A stretch of DNA of 64,000 bases from Parasedimentitalea psychrophila. GTDB lineage: Bacteria; Pseudomonadota; Alphaproteobacteria; Rhodobacterales; Rhodobacteraceae. The notes beneath the pieces were generated by a model. It saw only the letters and a program-made list of their open reading frames with translations. It was not told the DNA's origin and did no database searches. The translations under genes were made by a program, and so were the position numbers. Each line of letters begins with the position of its first letter. The stretch's first letter is position 1. This document shows positions 3,116 to 16,499 of the stretch, piece by piece. The stretch spans positions 868,001 through 932,000 of the forward strand of contig NZ_CP127247.1 of assembly GCF_030285785.1 (NCBI RefSeq). The letters are read 5' to 3'.

Positions 3116-4814
3116 GATTTCCCGTGCCAACTATGCCGCGATGTATGGCCCAACCACTGGCGACCGCCTGCGTCTGGCGGATACCGATCTGATCATCGAA
3201 GTCGAGCGCGACCTGACCACTTACGGCGAAGAGGTCAAATTTGGCGGTGGCAAGGTGATCCGCGATGGGATGGGGCAATCGCAGGTCACACGCGCCGCTG
3301 GGGCCGTGGATACGGTCATCACCAATGCGCTGATCGTCGATCACTCGGGAATCTACAAAGCCGATGTTGCACTCAAAAGCGGGCGCATTGCCAAGATCGG
3401 CAAGGCCGGGAACCCGGACACGCAGCCCGGTGTTGATATCATCATTGGCCCTGGCACCGAGATTATCGCGGGTGAGGGCAAGATCTTGACGGCGGGTGGC
3501 TTTGACAGCCACATCCACTTTATTTGCCCGCAGCAGATCGAGGATGCGCTGCATTCAGGGTTAACCACCATGCTGGGCGGCGGCACCGGCCCGGCACATG
3601 GCACATTGGCCACCACCTGCACCCCCGGTCCCTGGCATTTGGGGCGGATGTTGCAATCAGCAGATGCCTTTCCGATGAACATGGCCTTTGCCGGCAAGGG
3701 CAACGCCAGCCTGCCGTTTGCCCTGGAAGAGCAAGTAAAAGGTGGCGCTTGTGCGCTGAAGCTGCACGAGGATTGGGGAACCACGCCAGCCACCATCGAT
3801 TGCTGCCTGAGTGTGGCCGACGCGATGGATGTACAGGTGATGATCCACACCGACACCCTGAACGAGAGCGGCTTTGTCGAGCACACCCTTGGCGCCATGA
3901 AGGGCCGCACCATTCACGCCTTTCACACCGAAGGCGCAGGCGGCGGTCATGCGCCGGACATCATCAAGATCTGCGGTGAGGAGCATGTGTTGCCCTCCTC
4001 CACCAACCCGACCCTACCTTTTACCGTCAACACTCTGGAGGAACACCTCGACATGTTGATGGTATGTCACCATCTGGACAAGTCGATCCCCGAGGATGTC
4101 GCCTTTGCCGAAAGCCGCATCCGCCGCGAGACTATTGCCGCCGAGGACATCCTGCACGACATGGGGGCGTTCTCGATCATTGCCTCGGACAGTCAGGCGA
4201 TGGGGCGTGTGGGCGAGGTGCTGATCCGCACCTGGCAGACCGCCGACAAGATGAAGAAACAGCGCGGCCGTCTGGCCGAGGAGACCGGCGAGAATGATAA
4301 CTTCCGGGTGCGTCGCTATATCGCCAAATACACCATCAACCCGGCCATCGCCCACGGCATCAGCCATGAAATCGGCAGCATCGCAGAGGGCAAGCGCGCC
4401 GATCTGGTGCTGTGGAGCCCGGCGTTCTTTGGGGTAAAGCCGGAAATGATTTTGATGTCCGGCACCATTGTCTGTGCGCAGATGGGCGACCCCAATGCCT
4501 CGATCCCGACCCCGCAGCCGGTCTATACCCGCCCGATGTTTGGCGCCTATGGCCGGTCGCTTGAAAACAGCGCCGTCACCTTTGTCTCCGAGGCGGCGCA
4601 GGCGGATGGCATCCGAGAAAAACTGGGGCTGGCCAAGCAGACCGTGGCAGTGCGCAACACCCGTAACATCGGCAAGTCAGATTTGATCCTGAATAACGCC
4701 ACGCCAGAGATGGAAGTGAACCCCGAAACCTATGAAGTGCGCGCCGATGGCGAGCTGCTGACCTGCCAGCCAGCCGAAGTGCTGCCCATGGCTCAACGCT
4801 ATTTCCTGTTCTAA
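3105..4814 (+). CDS. ureC: Urease alpha (catalytic) subunit UreC
   Basis: Catalytic subunit holding the di-nickel centre. The ATG at 3105 gives [20 protein letters not shown] and 569 residues, the normal family length; an earlier in-frame start at 3048 would lie inside ureB and is rejected. Visible active-site parts are the HIHFICPQQ metal ligands (about His136 and His138), the LKLHEDWG segment with the lysine that is carbamylated, [33 protein letters not shown] with the mobile-flap histidine, and [11 protein letters not shown] with the Asp ligand. No residue looks missing, so the enzyme should be active. Confidence 0.98.
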
Positions 4815-4888
4815 GAGGCTCAATATGCAAAGAATTCAGTATGGTATGTCCGGAATGCATGGCGGAGCTTCTGAAGCAACACTGGTGA

Positions 4889-5134
4889 ATGCTGCACGTG
4901 CTGCATACTCCTGTGGCAATCGCAGCAACAACACAGACCGTTTCTATCCGCTCCCCTTTCGCGGTACTCAAGCGCGGCCTGTCAGCCATCTTTATGGGTC
5001 TGATCAACGTGGTCGAAGCCAATCCCCGCTATCGTCAGATCCAGCAACTGCAAGCGCTGAGCGACGAGCAGTTGGTGAGAAAAGGCCTGCGTCGCGACGA
5101 CATCGTAATGCACGTGTTTGGTCACTGGATGTAA
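4889..5134 (+). CDS. DUF1127 small protein
   Basis: An 81-residue protein between ureC and ureE. The C-terminal half (NPRYRQIQQLQALSDEQLVRKGLRRDDIVMHVFG) is a typical DUF1127 (YjiS-like) module. Members of this family are small, arginine-rich and linked in some alphaproteobacteria to RNA regulation and phosphate or carbon metabolism. Its role in a urease cluster is unknown. A longer overlapping frame from 4825 in another phase has no family features and is treated as a shadow. Confidence 0.7.
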   Translation: MLHVLHTPVAIAATTQTVSIRSPFAVLKRGLSAIFMGLINVVEANPRYRQIQQLQALSDEQLVRKGLRRDDIVMHVFGHWM

Positions 5135-5156
5135 GCACCCATCAGGGTATGCTGTC

Positions 5157-5612
5157 ATGAGTGCCCCGTCGATGATCTGCCGTGCCTATCACGGCCATGC
5201 GCACAATCCGGCCCCTGTTGATCGGGTTGTGCTTGACTATGACGCCCGTTTTATGCGCCGCAAGGTGCTGACCACCGAAGGTGGCGAGCGGCTGTTGGTT
5301 GACCTGCCCCAAACCACATCGCTGAATCACCAAGGCGTGCTGCGGCTAGAAGACGGTGGTGAGATCGAGGTCATCGCGGCGGTGGAAAAGCTGTTGCAGA
5401 TTACCGGCGATGACCTGACCCGGATGGCCTGGCACATTGGCAACCGCCATACCCCCTGCCAGATCGAGCCAACCCGCCTGCTGATCCAACATGATCATGT
5501 AATCCACGACATGCTGAACCTCTTGGGCGCTACGTTGAACGAGGTAACCGAGGCCTTCACCCCCGAGGGCGGCGCCTATGGCCACGGGCGCACCCATTCC
5601 CATGCGCATTGA
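5157..5612 (+). CDS. ureE: Urease accessory protein UreE (nickel metallochaperone)
   Basis: Delivers nickel to the UreD-F-G complex. The ATG at 5157 gives MSAPSMICRAYHGHA and 151 residues. Family landmarks are RRKVLTTEGGERLLVDLPQT, the central TRMAWHIGNRHTPCQIE nickel-site segment and HDHVIHDMLNLLGA. The C-terminus ends in a short His-rich tail ([10 protein letters not shown]), a usual metal-storage extension. The final 35 bases overlap the 5' end of ureF. An upstream in-frame start at 5118 would overlap the DUF1127 gene and is less likely. Confidence 0.95.
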   Translation: MSAPSMICRAYHGHAHNPAPVDRVVLDYDARFMRRKVLTTEGGERLLVDLPQTTSLNHQGVLRLEDGGEIEVIAAVEKLLQITGDDLTRMAWHIGNRHTPCQIEPTRLLIQHDHVIHDMLNLLGATLNEVTEAFTPEGGAYGHGRTHSHAH

Positions 5613-6866: not shown

Positions 6867-7248
6867 AGCAGGCCATAAAATGGTGGTGTCATGTGTGGAC
6901 ATATATGGACCCTGCGTTATTGCAACAGTCGGTGCTGTCAGACCAATTCGAACTGGTCTCTGCAAGGGGCTCTGTTGAAGTTCGTCCCTGATCCCGGACA
7001 CTGGGGTACTTTACCCCTGTCCATGAAAGGGGCACCAAATGGGTCAACAGCGACGGAAATATACGGACGATTATAAGGCTGCGGCAGTTGAACGACTTTA
7101 TGAGCCGGGTGCGACGCAGGGTAGCGTGTCGAGCGAGCTTACCCGGATTGTCCAATTGATGTACTTTCTCTCCGGCGCTTGGTGCAGTTTTAGTCCGGCG
7201 TTGGGCCAAGTCCCAGTGGTTGTCGCACCGAAATCTCAGTCCAAGTGA
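6867..7248 (+). pseudogene. Truncated reading frame and IS3-type orfA fragment
   Basis: Two broken pieces follow ureG. From ATG 6905 a short frame (MDPALLQQSVLSDQFELVS...) has coding-like composition but stops after about 28 codons, near what looks like an IS end (a TGAAGTTCGTCCCTGATCCC stretch at about 6973). From ATG 7039 a frame reads MGQQRRKYTDDYKAAAVERL then GATQGSVSSEL, the helix-turn-helix start of an IS3-family OrfA. It loses this identity near 7143 and runs into unrelated sequence. Neither piece can make a functional protein. Confidence 0.55.
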
Positions 7249-7570
7249 GACATAGAACCTTCACCGCCCAGCTAAGAGATGCCGCCCTGAAAGACTAATC
7301 CATGATGGACGTATGTATACGTCCACACATGACAGTGCCCTCCCGACCAGGATGTGACAGCCAGCAAGCCATTAGAAAAATGGTGTTTCACGAAAGCAAT
7401 TTATATTGATCTAAATCACGATCCAGACTTACGCCATCCCGCCGCTCGGGCCTCAGTCTCGGAACAAAACCACCGCTCGCCTTTGGCTTCATTGATCCTT
7501 GTCCGCTCGTACTGAGCCTCCCCCAAAAAAAGTGGTCCGCGCCTATGGTTAGGAAACCGGAGGACCATAG
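7249..7570. other. Intergenic remnant with FNR-like box and palindrome
   Basis: No gene is visible. A palindrome GGACGTAT-GT-ATACGTCC lies at 7307-7324. A near-consensus FNR/FnrL site, TTGAT-CTAA-ATCAC, lies at 7406-7419 (one base from TTGAT-N4-ATCAA). From about 7516 the sequence looks like the left end of an IS3 element (TGAGCCTCCCCC then AAAAAAAGTGGTCC). The FNR-like box may be the control site of a gene lost when the IS elements arrived. Confidence 0.35.
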
Positions 7571-7787
7571 ATGGCGATCAAGAGACCCAAGCCCGAAGAG
7601 ATTGTCGTGAAGTTACGGCAGGTTGAAGTCCTGATGGGGCAAGGTATGCCCCGGATTGACGCAATCAGACAGATCAGTGTGACTGAACAAACCTATTACC
7701 GCTGGAAGAAGAAATACGGCGGAATGGACCTGTCACGGTATTGTTCCGCCCCTTTGAGAGCATATTCTGCCCCAAAGGAGATACACC

Positions 7788-8063
7788 ATGGCACCACGAC
7801 CATCCGAAGAATTCAAACGCGACGCAGTGCGGATCGCACTGACCAGCGGGCTGACCCGCCGACAGGTGTCCTCCGATCTTGGGGTTGGTATGTCCACCCT
7901 GTGCAAGTGGATCAGAACCTATCGTGACGCGGACGTTGTTTCGAAAGAGGATCAGGAACTGGCCAATGAGAACGAGCGCCTTCGCCGGGAAAACCGCCTT
8001 CTACGTGAGGAGAGGGAGCTGCTAAAAAAAGCAACAATCTTCTTTGCGGACCAAAGCAAATGA
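7788..8063 (+). CDS. IS3-family transposase OrfA
   Basis: DNA-binding half of the IS3 transposase, 91 residues: a helix-turn-helix (MAPRPSEEFKRDAVRIA ... RRQVSSDLGVGMSTLCKW) followed by a leucine zipper (ENERLRRENRLLREERELLKKA). A run of seven A then G at 8024-8031 sits just before the orfB overlap, in the right phase for programmed -1 frameshifting into orfB; the -1 frame is open from there to the orfB ATG at 8060. The stop TGA overlaps that ATG. Confidence 0.85.
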   Translation: MAPRPSEEFKRDAVRIALTSGLTRRQVSSDLGVGMSTLCKWIRTYRDADVVSKEDQELANENERLRRENRLLREERELLKKATIFFADQSK

Positions 8064-8917
8064 GGTTTTCATTTGTTGAAAAGCACCGCAATAGCATTCC
8101 CACAGAGCGACTTTGCCGGATTGTGGATGTCACCCCACGTGGCTACCGAGCCTGACGCAAACGCCCTGCCTGCCAGCGTCAACGTGGGGATATGGTTCTG
8201 TTGGCCCACATCCGGGAGCAGCACCGCCTGAGTTTGCAGAGCTACGGCCGACCGAGAATGGTCGAAGAACTGAAAGAGCTTGGTCTGGATATTGGTCACC
8301 GCCGTGTCGGCCGATTGATGCGCCAGAACGGCATATCTGTTGTCAGAACCCGTAAGTACAAGGCCACAACGGACAGCAATCACAAGTTCAACATCACGCC
8401 AAACCTGCTGAACCGGAACTTCTCAGCAGATCGACCCAATCAAAAATGGGTTGTTGATATCAGCTACATCTGGACCCGCGAGGGCTGGCTCTATCTGGCC
8501 GTGGTTCTGGACCTGTACTCCAGGCGCGTGGTCGGTTGGGCTGTCAGCAACCGGATGAAGCGCGATCTGGCCATACGGGCGCTGAACATGGCCATAACCC
8601 TGCGCAGGCCGCCCAAAGGATGCATCCATCATTCTGATAGGGGCAGCCAATATTGCTCGCAGGATTACCAGAAAATCCTGCGCCGGTATGGCTTCAAGGT
8701 ATCCATGAGCGGCAAGGGTAATTGCTATGATAACGCCGCAATGGAAACCTTCTTCAAAACCATCAAAGCGGAATTGATCTGGCGGCACTCTTGGCAAACC
8801 CGCAGGGCTGCTGAGATCGCCATCTTCGAGTACATTAATGGGTTCTATAATCCCCGCCGGAGACACTCGGCATTAGGCTGGAAAAGTCCCTTGGCTTTTG
8901 AAAAGATCGCCGCCTAA
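8060..8917 (+). pseudogene. IS3-family transposase OrfB with in-frame TGA
   Basis: Catalytic DDE half of the transposase. From ATG 8060 the frame reads MRFSFVEKHRNSIPTERLCR... and is identical in style to full-length relatives, but codon 32 is TGA (8153-8155), where family members commonly have Trp (RAW-RKRP context). After it the frame stays open: HTH_21-type segment, then the rve core with catalytic Asp in VVDISYIW, Asp in HHSDRGSQYC and Glu in AMETFFKTIKAE, ending KSPLAFEKIAA. Restart at ATG 8192 would give a 241-residue product lacking the N-terminus. One nonsense change probably inactivates this copy. Confidence 0.75.
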
Positions 8918-9018
8918 ATGAGCACAAGGGGCGGAACGAAAGCGGGACAGGTCCAGAATGGGCACGGAACAACTCAAGGAACTGAAGCGTCTTCAGAAAG
9001 AGAACGAGCGCCTTCGGC

Positions 9019-9850
9019 GGGTAGTGTCGCAAACTTTTGGACCCCTGTTGCACTTCTCGACAGTGGCATTCATTGGGCAGTGTTTCGACATCTCATTCAA
9101 GGTTTAAGCGATTGATCAGTTTCAAAGGCGCGCACTATCCGAAATCTGTGATTCTATACGCCGTCTATTTCTATGTTCGGTTTGCGGTATCGTATCGCGA
9201 CCTCGAAGAGATCATGGCCGAACGCGGCGTCGCAGTGGATCACGCAACGCTCAATCGTTGGGCCGAAAAATACGCGGGTGCAATCGCCAATGAGGCTCAT
9301 CGTCGGAAGGCGCCGACCGGTCGATCTTGGCGGATGGACGAGACCTACGTGAAGGTCAAAGGGCGCTGGACATATCTCTATCGGGCGATAGACAAATGCG
9401 GAAAAACCCTTGATTTCATGCTGTCCGAACGACGTGATGAAGTGGCGGCGACCGCATTTTTCACCAAAGTGATCGCCAGCAACGGTTGGCCAGACAAAGT
9501 CGTCATCGACAAGAGCGGATCAAACGCCGCAGGTCTGTTCAACATGAATTGCCTGCTGGTGATGCATAACTGGTGTTGGTTGATCGACGTCCTGCAGGTG
9601 AAATATCTCAATAACATCATCGAACAGGATCACCGTTTCATAAAGAATATCACCCGCCCCATGCAGACCTTCAAATCGTTCAATTCAGCCGCCGCCACTC
9701 TGGCGGGCATCGAAGTCGCTCACATGATCCGCAAAGGACAATTCAACCGACCAGGGAAGTCCGGCTTCGAGCAGTTCGCAGAATTCGCTGGATAATTGTG
9801 TCCGACTGAAGCCCCCAACTCAATTCATGCTGGAATTTGCGACACTACCC
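9019..9850 (+). mobile_element. IS6-family insertion sequence
   Basis: An 832-bp element with perfect 15-bp terminal inverted repeats beginning GGGTAGTGTCGCAAA (9019-9033 and 9836-9850), typical of alphaproteobacterial IS6-type elements. No matching 8-bp target duplication is present (left flank CCTTCGGC, right flank CTCTGTCG). The two sides therefore come from different places, as expected after IS6 replicative transposition with deletion or inversion. Its left end truncates an IS3 orfA and its right end truncates a 489-bp repeat. Confidence 0.85.
9037..9795 (+). CDS. IS6-family transposase
   Basis: DDE transposase of about 240-252 residues. Family blocks are FKGAHYPKSVILYAVYFYVRF, the HTH segment SYRDLEEIMAERGVAVDHATLNRW, catalytic Asp in SWRMDETYVKVKGRW, YRAIDKCGKTLDF, the second Asp in KVVIDKSGSNAAG, the QVKYLNNIIEQDHRFIK segment with the catalytic Glu, and LAGIEVAHMIRKGQF. 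The true start is probably downstream of 9037 (near the FKRLISFKG segment), as the first 25 residues are not IS6-like. No internal stop, so it may be active. Confidence 0.85.
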   Translation: MDPCCTSRQWHSLGSVSTSHSRFKRLISFKGAHYPKSVILYAVYFYVRFAVSYRDLEEIMAERGVAVDHATLNRWAEKYAGAIANEAHRRKAPTGRSWRMDETYVKVKGRWTYLYRAIDKCGKTLDFMLSERRDEVAATAFFTKVIASNGWPDKVVIDKSGSNAAGLFNMNCLLVMHNWCWLIDVLQVKYLNNIIEQDHRFIKNITRPMQTFKSFNSAAATLAGIEVAHMIRKGQFNRPGKSGFEQFAEFAG

Positions 9851-10338
9851 CTCTGTCGTGATCCCGGATAGGTCTCATCAGTCAAAAGGTTCACAAGAAC
9901 CTACCTGCGGGGTTGGATCTCATGCAGGTGATCTCTCCAAGACTAGGCCATACAGGTAAGATCTCTGGTCAGTGTCCTAGTAGGGGATTGAGATCTACCT
10001 ACAGGGGAATAGGTATAAGTAATGGATGAAAGGAGGAGAATAGAGGAGAAGAAGTCCTAATAGTTTCCCCTAATAGAGGTCCTAAGAGGATCACCTACTA
10101 GGACCCCCAACAGAAAACCCCTCCACCAGAAGATCATTGTTTCAGTCATTAGTTTCAAAGGTTTAGCATGGAAGAGATCAAGGACCCGCGGCACTCCCGC
10201 CCCCTCGATGTTCACAGGTGGTCTGACCATCCAGAAGTGGTCGAGTTCGTTGACAGGATCTGGGATGAGTACCTACCCAAGGAAATGGTTGGAAAACCTG
10301 GGCCAAAACCCAAGATGGCCTTTCGGAAGCAGCTTAGG
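9850..10338. repeat. Left copy of 489-bp inverted repeat
   Basis: Pairs with 14595-15083 in inverse orientation; the compared bases differ at only two positions (C/T in a CAGT[C/T]ATTAG segment and A/G in AAGG[A/G]CCC). It contains a roughly 318-bp untranslated leader and the first 57 codons of the gene starting at ATG 10168. The outer edge coincides exactly with the end of the IS6 element, so the original repeat may have been longer. The inner edge is a sharp breakpoint in the coding sequence. Confidence 0.9.
9976..10102. promoter_or_regulatory. Cluster of CCTA-N-TAGG-like units in leader (left copy)
   Basis: Six short related palindromic units occur in about 125 bases: CCTAGTAGG (9976), CCTACAGG (9998), CCTAATAG (10056), CCTAATAGAGG (10069), CCTAAGAGG (10081) and CCTACTAGG (10094). 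Between them is a purine-only stretch around 10025-10053. The same cluster exists at 14831-14957 in the other repeat. Spacing and number suggest a binding array or replication-type iterons rather than a simple promoter; no function is known to me. Confidence 0.4.
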
Positions 10339-10548
10339 ATGCTCAGTGCTTGCTCGATAATACAGGAATGCCGCCGTAGAGGGCGCAAGTATCTTGATGC
10401 CGATGTCGCATGGCGTTTGGGTAAAAACAGCACAAATGGACACTCAAACGCGTCGCGGCAAACCATCAGGCGGCATAGTGGCTGGGGCCGTTATATGATT
10501 GAACTAGGTCAAATAGAGATCGGGTTGCGCTTTGACGACATTATCTGA
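10168..10548 (+). pseudogene. Chimeric frame: 5' end of the polymerase-like gene fused to unrelated sequence
   Basis: Codons 1-57 (MEEIKDPRHSRPLDVHRW... KMAFRKQLR) are the same as the start of the interrupted gene at 14765. After base 10338 the sequence diverges and encodes 69 residues I do not recognise (ECRRRGRKYLDADVAWRLG... IGLRFDDII). Its stop lies 17 bases inside the next gene, so translation of this frame could feed the OST-HTH gene. The fused product is unlikely to have the original activity. Confidence 0.5.
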
Positions 10549-11401
10549 CGACGCACAGCAGACGCTTCAACGTGAAGTCCAGCGATTGCTGGGTCGATGT
10601 TTGCTGCGACTGCAACAATACGAGCGCCTGATCAAGGCGATGATGGCACATCACGAAATCTCGGGGCCAGTTCATGCCTTAGAGGCGGTTCAGGCCGCGA
10701 AAATAGACAACACCGCCGGTAAGACGCTCGGCACCTTGGTTGGCGACCTCCTTGGATCGTATGTTGTTCCCGTCGAGATCGATCCTCCGGGAAAGGTGAC
10801 GACCAGTTCTCCCGAGGACGTCCCTTCGTTCGCCATGAAGATGCAACTGAGCTTACCGAATGCGGATTTCACCCGGGTGAAAAGGGACCTAAAAGAACTG
10901 GTGCTCTTGCGGAACAACTTGGTTCACCACTTCATCGACCAGCACGACCTCTGGAGCTTGGACGGATGCCGTAGCGCGCACGATGCATTGGTCCTCGCCT
11001 ACAACCGCATCGACATACATTTCGAAGAACTCCGTGGATGGGCTGAAGACATGGAAAAAAGTCGGCGGTTTCTCGCATCGGTCATCCAGTCTGACATGTT
11101 CCGAGAGCAGGTGGTCAACGGCATTGCCACGGATAGCACCGTGACTTGGCCTGCCGCAGGCGTAGTGAGCGCCTTGCGAGAAGCAGCCGGTGAGTTGGCT
11201 GTTGATGGATGGGCATCCGTCGCGGAGGCAAGCAGGTGGATTACCGAGCGGTATTCCGACTATCTACCCGTGAAGTATGGGTGCAGCAGTTGGCGGCAGG
11301 TCGTACACGAGTCGCGTATCTTCGAGCTTCGGTACTTCGAGTTGGATGGAAAGCGCTCCGCGCGGTATCGGGAAAAATTGAACTCCGCGAACACATGCTG
11401 A
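10532..11401 (+). CDS. OST-HTH/LOTUS domain protein
   Basis: A 289-residue protein if TTG 10532 is the start (MTTLSDDAQQTLQREVQRLLGRCLLRLQQYERLIKAM). The N-terminal two thirds is helical and resembles the uncharacterised part of bacterial OST-HTH proteins. The C-terminus (about 225-280) is an OST-HTH/LOTUS module: DGWASVAEASRWITERY, LPVKYGCSSWRQVVHESRIFELRYFE. LOTUS domains bind RNA, notably G-rich or G4 RNA in eukaryotes, and in bacteria are often fused to NYN nucleases; no nuclease is visible here. It lies inside the inverted-repeat segment as cargo. Confidence 0.75.
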   Translation: MTTLSDDAQQTLQREVQRLLGRCLLRLQQYERLIKAMMAHHEISGPVHALEAVQAAKIDNTAGKTLGTLVGDLLGSYVVPVEIDPPGKVTTSSPEDVPSFAMKMQLSLPNADFTRVKRDLKELVLLRNNLVHHFIDQHDLWSLDGCRSAHDALVLAYNRIDIHFEELRGWAEDMEKSRRFLASVIQSDMFREQVVNGIATDSTVTWPAAGVVSALREAAGELAVDGWASVAEASRWITERYSDYLPVKYGCSSWRQVVHESRIFELRYFELDGKRSARYREKLNSANTC

Positions 11402-11453
11402 ATTACGCTTGCAGCGCAGGTTTTTCCGGTCAGCAGAGATGCCCACCTTGGAC

Positions 11454-11533
11454 CTAATCTGTTTTACTTTTAGCCGCATGCCTCTCCAACCGATCCAGAT
11501 ATCCCTGACATCGCTCCCTGTGCCTGCTTGGCT
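11454..11533 (-). pseudogene. C-terminal fragment of a second copy of the polymerase-like gene
   Basis: On the minus strand this stretch reads RHRERCQGYLDRLERHAAK and then a stop, closely matching the C-terminus of the gene ending at 12126 (RHEERCQGYLDRLERHAVRF). The DNA match is strong over about 55 bases (11474-11530 against 12148-12205) and then ends abruptly at the secreted-protein gene. It is a relic of a paralogous, slightly diverged copy in tandem orientation. Confidence 0.7.
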
Positions 11534-11552
11534 AGAGGATTCTGAGCTAAAT

Positions 11553-11972
11553 CTACTGACGGCAGATTATCGTACCAGAAAGTATTTCTTCCTCAGGATT
11601 AAAGCCCTCGATCAAAACAGTAGTTTTGATGGAGACTTGGCGATTTCCACTTGGAAAAGTGAAACCCGGGACCACTACTTCTATGTCATTGACGAATTTG
11701 CCTGATTTTATGGTTTCAGTCCCAACAAGCAGGGAAATTTTCTCCGTCGAGCCCGTTTTAGTGACAACTTGCCGATCCAGTTCAACAACTATTGGCTCAC
11801 CAATGGCCGTATCAAGAAGAGTTAGCGTTGCACCTGTCGAGCCTTCCTGGAAATCCACAGATAGCGGCGGCAAATAAAGGTGGTAAAGTTGGATCATGCA
11901 GTTCTTCGCAAGTGCTTCACCGCTCACTGTCAACGAGATCACAAGACCTATAGCCATCGCACAAAAACGCAA
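11553..11972 (-). CDS. Hypothetical secreted protein
   Basis: A 139-residue protein with a signal peptide (MRFCAMAIGLVISLTVSGEALA, cleavage before KNC). The mature part is beta-rich (VDFQEGSTGATLTLLDTAIGEPIVVELDRQVV, IEVVVPGFTFPSGNRQVSIKTTVLIEGF) and keeps two Cys, one just after the cleavage site and one at the C-terminus (IICRQ), which could form a disulfide. I do not recognise the family. It sits between two C-terminal ends of the polymerase-like gene, so it is probably cargo of the same element; it is somewhat less GC-rich than core genes. Confidence 0.5.
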   Translation of the reverse strand: MRFCAMAIGLVISLTVSGEALAKNCMIQLYHLYLPPLSVDFQEGSTGATLTLLDTAIGEPIVVELDRQVVTKTGSTEKISLLVGTETIKSGKFVNDIEVVVPGFTFPSGNRQVSIKTTVLIEGFNPEEEILSGTIICRQ

Positions 11973-12125
11973 ACTCTCGTCTCCTTTACTGGAAGTTTGT
12001 GCCTCTTATTTCAGAGCAACAAAACCTAGTGGGATCAATGCCCCTCTTAACATCAGAGGATGCCTTGTTTTCCTTATAGTTCAAAGGCCCTATTGTCCGG
12101 TTCACCAACATTCATGCCCCCATGT

Positions 12126-13302
12126 CTATTCGCTAATGAACCTAACCGCATGCCTTTCCAACCGATCCAGATACCCCTGACACCTTTCCTCATGCCTGCT
12201 CCTGATGTGATCCAAAACCTGCTGGTCGGAAACCTCTGAGTACTCGGGCATGTCTGGCAGTTTGATTGATGTGGGCAGGGGCCCGCCAGTGATTGCCTCC
12301 GATGCCTCTGCCATAACAGCCCGCATCTCTGCTACTTTCGAGTAGTCAATGATGTAGCTGTCATGGACAGAAAGGATCAGTATGCCTTGCTCAGTGAAGT
12401 GGCGGTGAATGTAGGCGGTGATCTTGCTGTCCACACGCATGAGCTCGACCCCTTTGTCGCTGAACAGGTAGTCAGTCAGTTTGGGGTTCCGAGTCAGAAA
12501 ACCGTCCAGCAGTCGATCCAACCATTCGTTCGTCATATGCGTACCGGTTTGACCTCCAGAGAAGCTCTCTCGAAAGGCCCTGTATGCTGACGATTTATCC
12601 TTTGCGTTGATCGCAATAAGCGCTAGTCGTTTGACAAGCATGCGAACCGAACTTTGCGGGTATCCTGGAATCTTTATCTGCGAGCAGTCATACGGGTCCC
12701 CGACCAAATCCTCACCCAGCTCAGCATAAATCAGGTTGATGTGCAGGCCCTGAAAGTCGACCTCAACCGTTGGTGTATCGTTGATGAAGATCTTAGCACG
12801 CCAATCGCCGTCAACTTGCTGCCACCAAGCACCATAGAACCGACCATTTAGCTCCCAGCTGCTACGGCTGAAAATACGCCTGATCCTGATGTCATTCCCG
12901 TCGATGCGGACATTACGTGTCTTGGCGATGTCCTCGATCACAATGCAGGGGTCTTCGAGGGATGGAATGTCGATGAAGGAGGAGGCAATCAGCTTGTTGT
13001 AGGCAAGTACTTCCTCCCTCATGTGCTCGATCTCAGGGGTGTCCTCGTACTCAATCAGTTTGAAGTTTTTGTTCTTCAGAACAATGACTTCTTCACCTTC
13101 TGCCCGGCCAACATCTTCACGCTCGAACTTTGCCTGAGCAAACCAATCCTGCAGTATGTCGGCAGCACGAATTCTTGTCGTCCGGTTGCTCTTTGAGCCT
13201 GGAGCTGTGTAGCTGGCAAAAGCCATGTCGATCACTTCAGCATCATACAGGGCGTGGATGATGGGCACCAACTTCTTGGACAGGTGCAGTGCGTTATACC
13301 GG
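12126..13302 (-). pseudogene. Polymerase-like protein of the repeat element, C-terminal part (split by IS)
   Basis: About 390 residues, in frame with the N-terminal part once the IS at 13303-14498 is removed (join NAWKTGSR-YNALHLS). It contains FYGAWWQQVDGDWR, then VEVDFQGLHINLIYAELG (Asp in a DxSxLH-like setting), GDPYD, a basic helix VRMLVKRLALIAINAKDKSSAYRAF, and near the C-terminus GILILSVHDSYIID. The order Asp motif, Arg/Lys helix, HDS motif resembles motifs A, B and C of family-A DNA polymerases and single-subunit RNA polymerases (HDE/HDSF). This is inference from motifs only. No signal or membrane segment. Confidence 0.55.
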
Positions 13303-13341
13303 GGTAATCCCCCCATTTTTAACAGGGGGCGGTCGTAGAAT

Positions 13342-14168
13342 TTACGCGGCCATTTTCAGTTTCATTGCGGGTGTGATGCCGCCGAGGCCCATATTCGGGC
13401 GGTCATTATTGTAAGTCCATAGCCATTGTGTGGCAAAGTCCTGTGCCTCCTCTATGTTTTCGATGATATGTTGGTCCAACCATTCATGCCTGACGGTGCG
13501 ATTATAGCGCTCGATGTAAGCGTTCTGCTGCGGCTTTCCGGGTTGAATGTACTGGATGATAATACCTTGTTTCTCAGCCCATTCCAGCAGCTTACCACTG
13601 ATGTACTCCGGCCCATTATCGACCCGAATGGTTCCTGGTTTCCCACGCCATTCAATGATCCGATTAAGGCTGCGAATAACCCGTTCGGCTGGCAAAGAAA
13701 AATCGACCTCGATGCCCAAACCCTCGCGGTTAAAATCATCCAGCACGTTCAAGAGCCGAAACGCCCGACCATCCCCGAGGCGATCCGCCATGAAGTCCAT
13801 CGACCAGGTCATGTTCGGGCGTCCGGCACTGCCAGCGCATCGGGTTTGTCCCGCTTTAACCGTTTCCGAGGTTTGATCCGCAAGTTCAGTTCCAGTTCGC
13901 AGTAAATCCGGTAAACCCTTTTGTGGTTCCACGAATGACCTTGCACGTTACGTAGATGCAGGAAACATAGCCCAAACCCCCAAGTCTTCCGTGCGGCCGT
14001 CAGCCCAACCAGCAGATCGGCAATCTCTTCGTTCTCATCGCTCAAGAGCGGGCTGTAACGATAGCACGTCTCACTGACATCAAACGTGCGGCAGGCCAGC
14101 GCAATGCTGATACCGTGGCGCGCCACCGCTTTCTCGGCCAGACCCCGTCGTAAGGCTGGCCGGATCAC
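13342..14168 (-). pseudogene. IS407-type transposase OrfB with frameshift
   Basis: The first part (IRPALRRGLAEKAVARHGISIALACRTF...) runs from GTG 14168 and the second ([33 protein letters not shown]... to KLKMAA) lies in another frame. They should join at ...ALAVPDA-PNMTW around 13822, where the sequence GACGCCCGAAC appears to have lost one C. Catalytic residues are otherwise present: Asp in TWSMDFM, Asp in RVDNGPEY and Glu in [11 protein letters not shown]. This copy is therefore probably inactive unless the shift is suppressed or is a sequencing error. Confidence 0.75.
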
Positions 14169-14446
14169 TTTTTTCCCAGGGCTTCCTTCAGTAATTCTGC
14201 TTGCATGCTCATCTCGGCATACATCTTTTTCAGCCGCCGGTTCTCGTCTTCAAGCGCCTTCATTTGGCTGATCATCGACGCGTCCATACCACCGTATTTT
14301 GATCGCCATTTGTAGAACGACGCGTTGCTCATCCCGTGCTCGCGGCACAGCTCCGTTACAGGCACACCGCCTTCGGCTTGGCGTAGGATCGCAAGAATTT
14401 GGGGTTCGCTATATCTCGTCATCTTCATCAAAATCTCCTCATGCAT
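14165..14446 (-). CDS. IS407-type transposase OrfA
   Basis: A 93-residue DNA-binding subunit, or 86 residues from the second Met (MKMTRYSEPQILAILRQAEGGVPVTELCREHGMSNASFYKWRSKYGGM) followed by a zipper (KALEDENRRLKKMYAEMSMQAELLKEALGKK). The end of the gene has an A6G run (GGAAAAAAGTGA) in the correct phase for -1 frameshifting into orfB, as is usual for IS3-family elements. Confidence 0.85.
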   Translation of the reverse strand: MHEEILMKMTRYSEPQILAILRQAEGGVPVTELCREHGMSNASFYKWRSKYGGMDASMISQMKALEDENRRLKKMYAEMSMQAELLKEALGKK

Positions 14447-14498
14447 TCTGCCGAGAAAATTCTACTTCCACATCCCCTTAGTTTCGGGGGGGATTACC

Positions 14499-14765
14499 CC
14501 GGGAGCCCGTTTTCCAAGCGTTGACCGACAAGGACACCCCGATGCTTAGCTCAGGATCCTCCAGCCAAGCCACATACAGGTCCAAGACCAACACCCTAAG
14601 CTGCTTCCGAAAGGCCATCTTGGGTTTTGGCCCAGGTTTTCCAACCATTTCCTTGGGTAGGTACTCATCCCAGATCCTGTCAACGAACTCGACCACTTCT
14701 GGATGGTCAGACCACCTGTGAACATCGAGGGGGCGGGAGTGCCGCGGGCCCTTGATCTCTTCCAT
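14499..14765 (-). pseudogene. Polymerase-like protein of the repeat element, N-terminal part
   Basis: The first 89 codons of the interrupted gene: MEEIKGPRHSRPLDVHRWSD, VEFVDRIWDEYLPKEMVGK, then the basic PGPKPKMAFRKQLRVLVLDLYVAWLEDPELSIGVSLS. With the C-terminal part the intact protein would be about 481 residues. The frame runs 8 codons into the IS before stopping. Its 5' leader and codons 1-57 are duplicated in inverse orientation at the left end of the element. I do not recognise the N-terminal domain. Confidence 0.55.
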
Positions 14766-15083
14766 GCTAAACCTTTGAAACTAATAACTGAAACAATGAT
14801 CTTCTGGTGGAGGGGTTTTCTGTTGGGGGTCCTAGTAGGTGATCCTCTTAGGACCTCTATTAGGGGAAACTATTAGGACTTCTTCTCCTCTATTCTCCTC
14901 CTTTCATCCATTACTTATACCTATTCCCCTGTAGGTAGATCTCAATCCCCTACTAGGACACTGACCAGAGATCTTACCTGTATGGCCTAGTCTTGGAGAG
15001 ATCACCTGCATGAGATCCAACCCCGCAGGTAGGTTCTTGTGAACCTTTTGACTGATGAGACCTATCCGGGATCACGACAGAGG
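14595..15083. repeat. Right copy of 489-bp inverted repeat
   Basis: Mirror partner of 9850-10338 (position x pairs with 24933 minus x). This copy is the native one: its inner end continues uninterrupted into the coding sequence. Its outer end continues toward the tRNA-Gln gene without an IS boundary. It includes the CCTA/TAGG cluster at 14831-14957. The 4.26 kb between the repeats could be inverted by homologous recombination. Confidence 0.9.
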
Positions 15084-15218
15084 TAGGAGAGGCCCAAGAG
15101 CCCCGCTGAGAGCCGCTGTAATCACCGAATTACACCACACTGGCGCAGGGGCATTACTGGGGGCATTCTGAGCCAGTCAGGGCCAGAACCTAGGTCGCTA
15201 TTCTATGTAAGGAAGTAC

Positions 15219-15293
15219 TGGCTGGGGTGGTAGGATTCGAACCTACGATCTTCAGTACCAAAAACTGTTGCCTTACCACTTGGCCACACCCCA
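15219..15293 (-). tRNA. tRNA-Gln (UUG anticodon)
   Basis: Read on the minus strand the sequence starts TGGGGTGTGGCCAAGTGGTA and ends CACCCCAGCCA. Acceptor stem TGGGGTG pairs with CACCCCA; the D arm is GCCAAGTGGTAAGGC; the anticodon arm is CAGT-TTTTGGT-ACTG with anticodon TTG; the T arm is GTAGG-TTCGAAT-CCTAC. CCA is encoded. It lies 135 bases outside the right inverted repeat, so it may mark the island edge. The gap 15084-15218 shows no gene. Confidence 0.96.
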
Positions 15294-16499
15294 TCAGTGA
15301 GCGGCTGTCTAATGTCACTTTCGAGCGCGCGCAAGAGGGAGAAGGCAAAAAAGCAGTTCTTTTTTCCTTTTTCTTTCGCAGCCCCAAACAAACGATTGGC
15401 TGCCAAAACGCGGTTGCGAAAAGGCGGGTGTCACGACCTCTGAACCTCTCTCGATACACGCCTCTCCAATCGTGCGCGCACCGGGCTTCAGAGCCGTTAT
15501 TTTCCTGCCCCAAAATGGATCTGCCACAGTTCTTCGCCGTTCCTTTGACAGCATATCCGGCCACAAAGGAGGGGAGCATTGGATAAATGCGGACGGAGAG
15601 ATGTCGCAGGGTTTCGCTGCGGGTTGATGATGCCACCACCCTCCGACTGCACCGATCTGCGCTGCAAATCGGACCACCCGAGGGCCCACGTCCGGCGCGG
15701 AGCATTTGGGAGAGCTGCGCTGATGAAACCTCTCTACCCAGTGCCCTGATCAATCGACCTGCGCGGCGCGATTGTCGCGCCGCGCCAGAGCCTCAGGCAG
15801 AGCCGCGAATCGCCCCATCCGAACTGATCTTGGGCCTATGAAATTCCGGCCGCGCCTGGCGGTCAGAAACAGGCCTGATATCGCCCGTTCCGCCGACGCC
15901 CTGCTCAATGAAACCAGTGTTCCAAGAAATCCAACCGTCATAACCTGCTGGAACATAACACCCGGCTTGCTCGCAGCGCCGGAAATCACCACCTCAGCGG
16001 GGGAATGCGGGGGAATACAGTCCGGGACTTCTGGATGAATGGGTGCTCCCGTCAGATGTGCTGTCATCGCCATACACCAGACTTGAGGGAACGCATGTCG
16101 AAAGCACTGGAAGAAGCGCCATCAACGCACCGGTTCGAATTACATTTAATCTATATTTCAAATGCTTACCTCCCACATAACGAGGCAACTCTATTCGGGC
16201 ATGTTGCCTGATAAACCGCATTCCTGCAAATAGTCCGCGAAATCGCTTCCGCAACACACGGTCCACCGGAGCCCCCATTTCAAGTACACTGTGCGCCAGC
16301 GCTCCCGAAAATATCCGGTCCAGTCGCCAACCTCTGGATGCGAGCGGACCACATGCGGCGGCGGCAAATGTTCGAAAATGCAACTTACATCCTGAAACGC
16401 CGCAACATTTGGATCCGCCACCAGAAAAACAGGCCGGTGGCTGCTCTGTCCTGCAGGTTTCCACGGCGGGGATTGTGTTGATCCATCATCCGCAAACCT
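15294..16499. other. Gene-poor, decayed stretch
   Basis: About 1.2 kb without a gene I can support. Open frames exist on both strands (for example minus 15750-16073, 107 codons, and minus 16191-16421, 76 codons with YFRERWRTVYLKWGLRWT) but none has a family motif, good ribosome site or consistent codon use. The stretch just after the tRNA contains long T runs (15356-15374) that might be part of a terminator. The region looks like the remains of deleted genes next to the island. Confidence 0.4.

Follow-up and report, generated by a model that had tools for sequence, protein, structure and literature searches.

The stretch of DNA analyzed here (the window) comprises 64,000 nucleotides of contig NZ_CP127247.1 of the alphaproteobacterium Parasedimentitalea psychrophila (positions 868,001 to 932,000, forward strand), and it contains, next to a gene for tRNA-Gln (TTG), a split gene for a polymerase-like protein enclosed with cargo genes between two long inverted repeats. 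As argued below, this region is most probably the decayed half, called arc A in the following, of an integrative element targeting tRNA-Gln, and it is a fossil of its family rather than an active member. The tRNA gene, the integration target, lies at 15219..15293 on the minus strand (ARAGORN; Rfam tRNA), and an Rfam scan of positions 7000-16000 found the tRNA alone. The repeat arms, at 9850-10341 and 14592-15083, are 492 nt long and 99.39% identical (3 mismatches in 492), and chance cannot account for so long and so nearly perfect an inverted repeat. When a 489-bp version of the repeat was used as query, the second genomic copy scored 874 bits versus 883 for the first. Each arm consists of a 318-bp leader followed by the first 58 codons of the polymerase-like gene, the ORFs starting at 10168 on the plus strand and at 14765 on the minus strand.

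From the tRNA gene leftward, the features of the window, on the minus strand unless stated otherwise, are as follows. The final 17 nt of tRNA-Gln (15219..15235) form the att core at the inner edge of attL, and the same 17-mer, unchanged or with one to two changes, stands at the element tips of relatives; it is followed by P' arm-type repeats of the form AATGCCCC at 15148..15167 (15160-15167 and 15148-15155), which occupy the same position in relatives. The right arm (14592..15083) leads into the 5' part of the polymerase-like gene (14503..14765, delimited by its ORF and by homology to relatives, with the edge read from the sequence), and the remainder of the gene, carrying motifs A, B and C and recognized by its profile match to phrog_4756 and by alignment, lies at 12126..13302. 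Between them, at 13303..14498, is an insertion, presumably of the IS3 type, with CCGG at both edges, read by eye; it contains orfA (14165-14446) and an orfB region made of the overlapping ORFs 13809-14168 and 13342-13932. The cargo includes an ORF for a small secreted-looking protein (11553..11972), whose signal-like start was judged by eye and which has no Pfam match, and, on the plus strand, a gene with an OST-HTH/LOTUS domain (10532..11401; PF12872, E 1.7e-06); a PADLOC scan of these two ORFs gave no match. A relic of a second 3' end of the polymerase-like gene (11471..11528) matches residues 372-392 and forms with 12143-12200 a 58-nt direct repeat of 84% identity. The left arm (9850..10341, plus strand) holds a 58-codon stub of the gene, its core and arm sites being gone, and starts at the base directly after an element at 9020..9849 (transposase ORF 9037-9795 on the plus strand; ends GGTAGTGTCGCAAA / GCGACACTACC; no strand assigned to the element), which is presumably of the IS6 type, as an earlier note had it. 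The decay of the window copy is visible in these two insertions: the IS3-type one splits the polymerase-like gene and the IS6-type one removed the left core. Much of an earlier reading of the window made from its letters alone (the original prediction) survives this inspection, namely the near-identical inverted repeats (there 489 bp with about two mismatches), the leader and gene start in each arm (there 57 codons), the OST-HTH gene, the secreted-looking ORF, the remnant of a second gene copy, the interruption of the gene by an insertion sequence and the exact truncation of the left end by the IS6-type element.

The ends of the element became recognizable in its relatives. An 86-bp stretch that comprises the tRNA-Gln end and DNA beyond it is also present elsewhere in the host genome and in relatives. 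In many relatives the inverted arms extend through the terminal 17 nt of the tRNA gene, TCCTACCACCCCAGCCA or a slightly altered form of it, so that this 17-mer, which includes CCA, marks the arc both on the tRNA-Gln side and on the opposite side. The original prediction had placed the end of the element at 15083; its true tip is the 17-nt 3' end of tRNA-Gln at 15219-15235. Direct-repeat pairs of the AATGCCCC type are found inside and outside the core, and their distribution was determined with a strict pattern, which misses GGCCCC variants (a looser pattern had no control). At attL, where the tRNA gene occupies the outer place, the inner pair is present in 8/9 sites and the outer pair in 0/9; internal inverted sites have the inner pair in 10/11 and the outer pair in 8/11; terminal sites have the outer pair in 8/11 and the inner pair in 4/11, and we read the four terminal sites with an inner pair as the starts of another copy. 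In random 45-bp windows of the same loci the strict pattern occurs in 71 of 22,000, the site common to L255 and L256 being counted once in this control (L and G numbers are our handles for loci and genomes). A 17-mer core accompanied by arm repeats is the anatomy of a tyrosine-integrase attP. A separate peculiarity was noted at L123:8152-8168, where the leader and opening codons of the polymerase-like gene run directly into an att core, an arrangement that recombination of a core with the gene start would produce. In one reading frame the flanks of the tips resemble a conserved protein end, which we put down to the conservation of arm repeats and core in the DNA.

The search for cores covered 23 genomes, all selected as carriers of the element. 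In 9/23 genomes a single contig bears three or more cores whose orientation strictly alternates, and the reversed control pattern was found in 0/23. In nine islands (L250-L254, L256, L259-L261) the cores read +, -, + outward from tRNA-Gln, and the order is attL, arc A with the polymerase-like gene, an inverted att site, a second arc (arc C) with an integrase gene, and attR or the next copy; the cargo of these nine islands differs. Arc A measures 2.2-7.3 kb and arc C 4.1-13.4 kb. Inverted ends were found on arc A in all ten cases measured (228-475 bp, 87-100% identity, 100% in four) and on arc C in 10/11 (69-318 bp, 73-100% identity; none in L260). On its inner side the arc-A repeat stops within the beginning of the gene in some elements (window, L145, L159) and within the end of the gene in others (L140, L148/L066). 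Direct attL/attR cores equal to the tRNA 3' end occur in the same nine islands and in L263 and L264, and the G444 contig (L255/L256) has two complete units in tandem at tRNA-Gln, with five alternating cores. DNA outside attR is colinear over >150 bp with element-free tRNA-Gln downstream DNA for 4/13 queries, at 64-72% identity, three of the four matches being against one genome (L244) and one of these three shifted by 43 bp. Because attR flanks match tRNA-Gln downstream DNA in these cases, a transposon with its own terminal repeats and random targets was rejected.

The integrase was recognized from a 404-aa ORF adjoining the polymerase-like gene on a Paracoccus plasmid, with homologues of about 43-94% identity in many islands. 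DUF6538 and PF00589 were present in 5/5 integrases scanned, and L165 fell just below the PF00589 cutoff. A profile built for it matched 41 of 80 loci, and 36 of the 50 loci that measure 9 kb or more; L140, where the integrase gene runs off the end of the locus, went undetected. Among 14 islands compared for gene content, the polymerase-like gene is present in 14/14 and the integrase gene in 13/14 (not in L072), mostly as one gene each, while the next ORF clusters comprise five ORFs found in two islands and four ORFs found in four, with none in more than four. The cargo is mixed, with metabolic genes and single matches to defence models, e.g. Pycsar cyclase and dCTPase (100 of 101 ORFs of at least 100 aa scanned, polymerase and integrase excluded, one L072 ORF left out). 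Judged from these sequences, with attL/attR direct repeats, an integrase and empty sites all found, the relatives of the region are tRNA-targeting tyrosine-integrase islands. This bears out the original prediction that the region is mobile-element DNA: the homologues are mobile, the repeat type recurs in more than one assembly, and the search for uninterrupted copies that it had proposed gave the true ends, the tRNA-Gln 17-mer tips, and a varied cargo. The bounds proposed for the element did not hold, as in relatives it runs past arc A to the integrase arc and attR. Nor are two copies needed to account for the region, as had been supposed: the inverted-arm architecture of the window is found in other genera, and in relatives a pair of inverted arms, one with a gene stub only, is the usual structure of a single element.

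The protein encoded in arc A belongs to a family that has so far been labelled hypothetical. The large fragment of the window gene (12126-13316) matches phrog_4756, a phage family without annotated function, over residues 42-344 (E 2.5e-45); it passes no Pfam family cutoff, RNA_pol (PF00940) reaching 11.6 bits versus a cutoff of 22 and DNA_pol_A (PF00476) not being listed. The gene occurs in 14 of 101 genomes sampled around the host (host included) and in 54 of 394 genomes of the host's family, and its relatives are found in 154 phage records and 3 plasmid records. A search of genome contigs gave 297 stretches with relatives, from which 80 loci were kept; proteins of 58 of these were aligned, leaving out broken genes, genes cut by contig ends and, by choice, some full-length genes including L162, L167, L190, L191, L204, L206, L209 and L216. 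Eleven residues are invariant in 58/58 proteins (E279, D281, H286, D301, Y303, R319, K323, N331, H412, D413, S414), including the presumed catalytic aspartates D281 and D413 and the R...K pair of motif B, and we read the invariant residues as counterparts of three motifs that characterize the superfamily of Pol I and T7 RNA polymerase: motif A, motif B with its R...K, and motif C (HDS). A Pfam scan of the 58 relatives gave weak RNA_pol matches in 5 (best E 0.012), and neither DNA_pol_A (PF00476) nor a reverse transcriptase family was among the 25 families listed of the 27 that Pfam gave for them.

An AlphaFold2 model of the protein (pLDDT 89.2, pTM 0.88) gave 17 Foldseek matches at E <= 0.001, to family-A DNA polymerases such as those of the apicoplast, Bst and Aquifex and Pol theta. 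In VIA-align, the highest Z was 13.1 for family-A polymerases (249 residues), and yeast mitochondrial RNA polymerase reached 11.4 (385 residues), with the caveat, which tells against the polymerase assignment, that values as high as about 13 may merely reflect an arrangement widespread among helical folds; among the 50 fold matches listed there was no B-family polymerase or reverse transcriptase. The same side of the balance holds the low TM-scores of the Foldseek matches to polymerases (0.13-0.30) and the searches at the sequence and profile level, which gave no significant link to polymerases: a search against solved structures found no match, and when the profile was compared with the host PolA and a single phage RNA polymerase, the matches were weak and no longer than a motif. 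The predicted protein has a palm fold with the aspartates of motifs A and C and the R...K pair of motif B, and we take it, on its modelled structure, as a compact, deeply diverged family-A-fold protein. Phage relatives (L027:5608-6957 and others) are carried by large Vibrio, Aeromonas, Rheinheimera and Shewanella phages, several of which have the gene at two separate places, and in Shewanella phage KASIA the gene lies near RNA polymerase and primase genes. A pattern scan of viral contigs matched 19 stretches, none of them a relative of the gene, and a further scan of viral sequences, for which a phage RNA polymerase served as query, turned up three loci (84-91% identity), which were not used.

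The two arcs are found in different orientations. In the nine islands the polymerase-like gene points away from tRNA-Gln in seven and toward it in two, and the integrase gene away in three and toward in six; the window arc A is in the polymerase-away orientation. In islands with direct cores only (L151/L264, L172/L263, L144/L074) both genes point toward the tRNA. A tree of 33 rows from the tRNA-Gln group plus two outer ones, 20 with an orientation label, contains a sister pair formed by L072, represented by a C-terminal fragment, and Tropicibacter L163, whose arc was read through the longer L258 (support 100/99, branches of 0.019 each). The two have 1,884 bp of arc A in common, at 96.2% identity and inverted relative to tRNA-Gln; measured from the tRNA end, one element enters the match at -19 and the other at 5066, so that its edges lie 3 and 4 bp beyond the cores, and the rest of arc A differs. 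L072 keeps inverted arms, and its polymerase-like gene points away from tRNA-Gln. Recombination by the tyrosine integrase of the element at the inverted att cores would best explain the inversion in relatives. As for the 4.26-kb inversion foreseen by the original prediction, the two sister elements do carry homologous segments in opposite orientations. The window copy has lost its left core and arm sites, and inversion there could now proceed only if the two arms recombined by homology.

Copies at other tRNA genes complete the survey. A scan of 122 loci, some overlapping, with a library of 38 tRNA tails revealed at several loci ordinary direct tail copies of tRNA-Lys, Gly, Leu, Ala, Asn, Ser, Cys and Glu. 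At L210 (tRNA-Thr; 9560-12730) perfect 262-bp inverted arms start from the tRNA 3' tail and hold the first 61 integrase codons, a layout that mirrors the tRNA-Gln case with an integrase more distant than those of the tRNA-Gln islands; at L215 (tRNA-Gly; 4034-5403) 71-bp inverted arms, including 27 nt of the tRNA gene, surround the integrase, and the polymerase gene is outside. The host genome itself has three more stop-interrupted or split copies of the polymerase family, L090:7059-8438 near tRNA-Asn, and L091:7456-8835 and L092:7468-10081 near tRNA-Asn tail copies.

Taken together, the layouts compared here make it probable, and we hold this with good confidence, that the family consists of elements at tRNA-Gln whose integrase inserts a circle and most of which carry a second, inverted att site splitting them into arc A and arc C, the window being a decayed arc A. 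As far as sequences can establish it, the layout is shown directly by the islands, the att sites, the empty-site matches, the inverted repeats and the one oppositely oriented sister pair. In this model, the tyrosine integrase would insert the circle at the 17-bp core that it has in common with the tRNA, generating attL (tRNA-core-P') and attR (P-core-host DNA); a second complete P-core-P' site, inverted and placed between the two core genes, would define, in most elements, arc A, with the compact family-A-type polymerase gene and cargo within long inverted repeats, and arc C, with the integrase and cargo. The integrase would both make the circle and flip the arcs, the polymerase-like protein might copy the excised circle, and flipping may switch the direction of the gene beside the tRNA, change the mode of replication, or both. 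If a flip occurred during fork passage, when one att site has been replicated before the other, the forks would chase each other, as in the yeast 2-micron plasmid.

Several observations count against parts of this model. Neither an integrase nor a matching attR was found in the window; the homologue search for the integrase also covered L093 and L121, two stretches upstream of it, and was negative there too. A distal core copy in direct orientation, 25.5 kb from tRNA-Gln (G000:C1:857676-857692, i.e., L093:15179-15195, one mismatch), bears a P' arm instead of P, its outer flank lacks a P arm, and a small N-terminal scrap of the polymerase-like gene follows the core. Among the relatives, L263 (Paracoccus kondratievae) and L264 have two direct cores only and lack the internal inverted site, neither a third core nor an attR was found for L258, the core order of L265 is +,-,- rather than +,-,+, and the strict arm pattern does not recover the outer pair of L250 and L253 or either pair of L251. 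With regard to inversion, it is displayed by one sister pair only, in which L072 has no intact internal inverted core and no integrase, and which homologous recombination between the arms could also have produced; the combination of polymerase toward and integrase away was not seen in the nine islands; and orientation on the tree needs 5 changes versus a shuffled mean of 6.8, a value as low being reached in 53-61 of 500 shuffles, so that the tree is compatible with frequent switching across the family without supporting it strongly.

The most direct competitor of a single two-arc element is the insertion of two separate elements in opposite orientation at tRNA-Gln followed by deletions, the inverted arms being accidental. 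Tandem copies do exist, as in G444 with its five alternating sites, the host of the window has further gene relics nearby, and the core order of L265 (G045:C2:8000-27500), an irregular island with three polymerase fragments, is not the common one. Yet the order attL, arc A, inverted att, arc C and attR or next copy returns in nine islands with differing cargo, most of the 14 islands hold one polymerase and one integrase gene, and identity between the two arms of an element rises to 100%, while most other elements have leaders that resemble the window leader in pieces only; two insertions are on these grounds quite improbable. Far less credible still is the idea, raised when the tips proved to be the tRNA 3' end, that tRNA-Gln primes replication or reverse copying and that the 17-nt tips are primer-binding sites rather than recombinase cores. 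That the tips are the 3' 17 nt including CCA would suit it, but arm-type repeats, the attL/attR logic, empty-site matches and a tyrosine integrase explain the tips, and in relatives the tails of other tRNA genes are arranged as ordinary direct repeats; we ruled it out on the arm-type repeats, attR and the integrase.

What the inversion and the protein would do is a different matter, on which other opinions deserve more weight. Flipping of arc A could act as a genetic switch that aligns the polymerase gene with tRNA-Gln transcription or turns it against it, without taking any part in replication. In 7/9 complete islands the gene begins 250-730 bp from tRNA-Gln and runs the same way as the tRNA gene, in 2/9 it is reversed, and both arc orientations occur in sister elements, all of which would agree with this; but a switch could do without extended matching repeats and without an integrase arc that occurs in both orientations (away 3/9, toward 6/9), and we regard it as possible, if on the unlikely side. 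Somewhat more doubtful is that the protein is a repurposed palm-fold protein, e.g., a defence or DNA-binding factor carried as cargo, and not a working polymerase. The lack of a sequence match to solved polymerases, the Pfam results for the window fragment and the 58 relatives, the low TM-scores and the phage relatives, which are 'hypothetical' genes, some at two places per genome, speak for it; the invariance of both presumed catalytic aspartates and of the R...K pair in 58 proteins, the presence of the gene in 14/14 islands while the cargo varies, and a PADLOC scan of two homologues without a match speak against it. About equally tentative is the most ambitious interpretation, by analogy, of the two-arc element as a bacterial counterpart of the 2-micron plasmid, in which the integrase would flip an arc during replication, converting theta replication into double rolling circle replication with consequent amplification, and the family-A-type polymerase would be the replicase.

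In open-access literature, considering titles and the starts of abstracts of the best matches listed, we found no description of this element or of its polymerase. Unusual features are the polymerase, the presence of a second, inverted att site and the division into two arcs; the integration is ordinary and of the kind known from tRNA islands. The elements suggest that small tRNA islands can pair a site-specific recombinase with an unrecognised polymerase-like protein, with sites placed so as to allow inversion of half of the element, a layout that serves the yeast 2-micron plasmid to raise its copy number. If the 2-micron mechanism worked in bacteria, it would provide Alphaproteobacteria, including many marine ones, with a natural device for amplification or switching, and would offer a likely function for the phage protein family of the 154 records; the inverted att sites of L210 and L215, whose integrases are more distant, would then point to a repeated origin of such a device.

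Known systems resemble the element in different respects. With the tRNA-gene islands of tyrosine integrases (Islander, PMC4383910), the likeness lies in the PF00589 integrase, the attL/attR cores equal to the tRNA 3' end, the tRNA kept whole, the empty-site matches and the variable cargo; unlike those islands, this element has a complete inverted internal att site with long inverted repeats around it and, as its only other recurrent core gene, the family-A-type polymerase. Tycheposons (PMC10872708) are likewise cargo-carrying islands with a tyrosine recombinase at tRNA genes; the parts of that source consulted mention no inverted internal att site, and the word 'polymerase' is absent from its main text. 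Pipolins (PMC7385651) are integrative bacterial elements that encode their own DNA polymerase, but theirs is of the B family; the fold matches listed for the protein described here are to family A and not B, in islands for which there was no dedicated PolB search. DIRS1-like retrotransposons (PMC3266345) also combine a tyrosine recombinase and a polymerase with inverted repeats, a circular intermediate (predicted for the present elements) and no target duplication, but use a reverse transcriptase and RNA, while here the predicted fold is family-A-like and the repeats have arm-type att sites. PHROG family 4756 is matched by the window protein at 2.5e-45; the five phage copies inspected sit among phage genes and, unlike the islands, have no tRNA gene in the annotation tables inspected. 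The 2-micron plasmid of yeast encodes Flp, whose target sites are contained in 599-bp inverted repeats, and forms isomers by inversion (PMC3147054; also PMC7710549). The relatives, though not the window, likewise have inverted recombinase sites in long inverted repeats, two unique arcs and their own recombinase, in a circle geometry that is deduced from the integrated form; isomers are here a prediction, the opposite arc orientations observed being those of one sister pair in different genomes, one partner decayed. Different from the 2-micron plasmid, the element is bacterial, integrates at a tRNA gene and encodes a polymerase-like protein.

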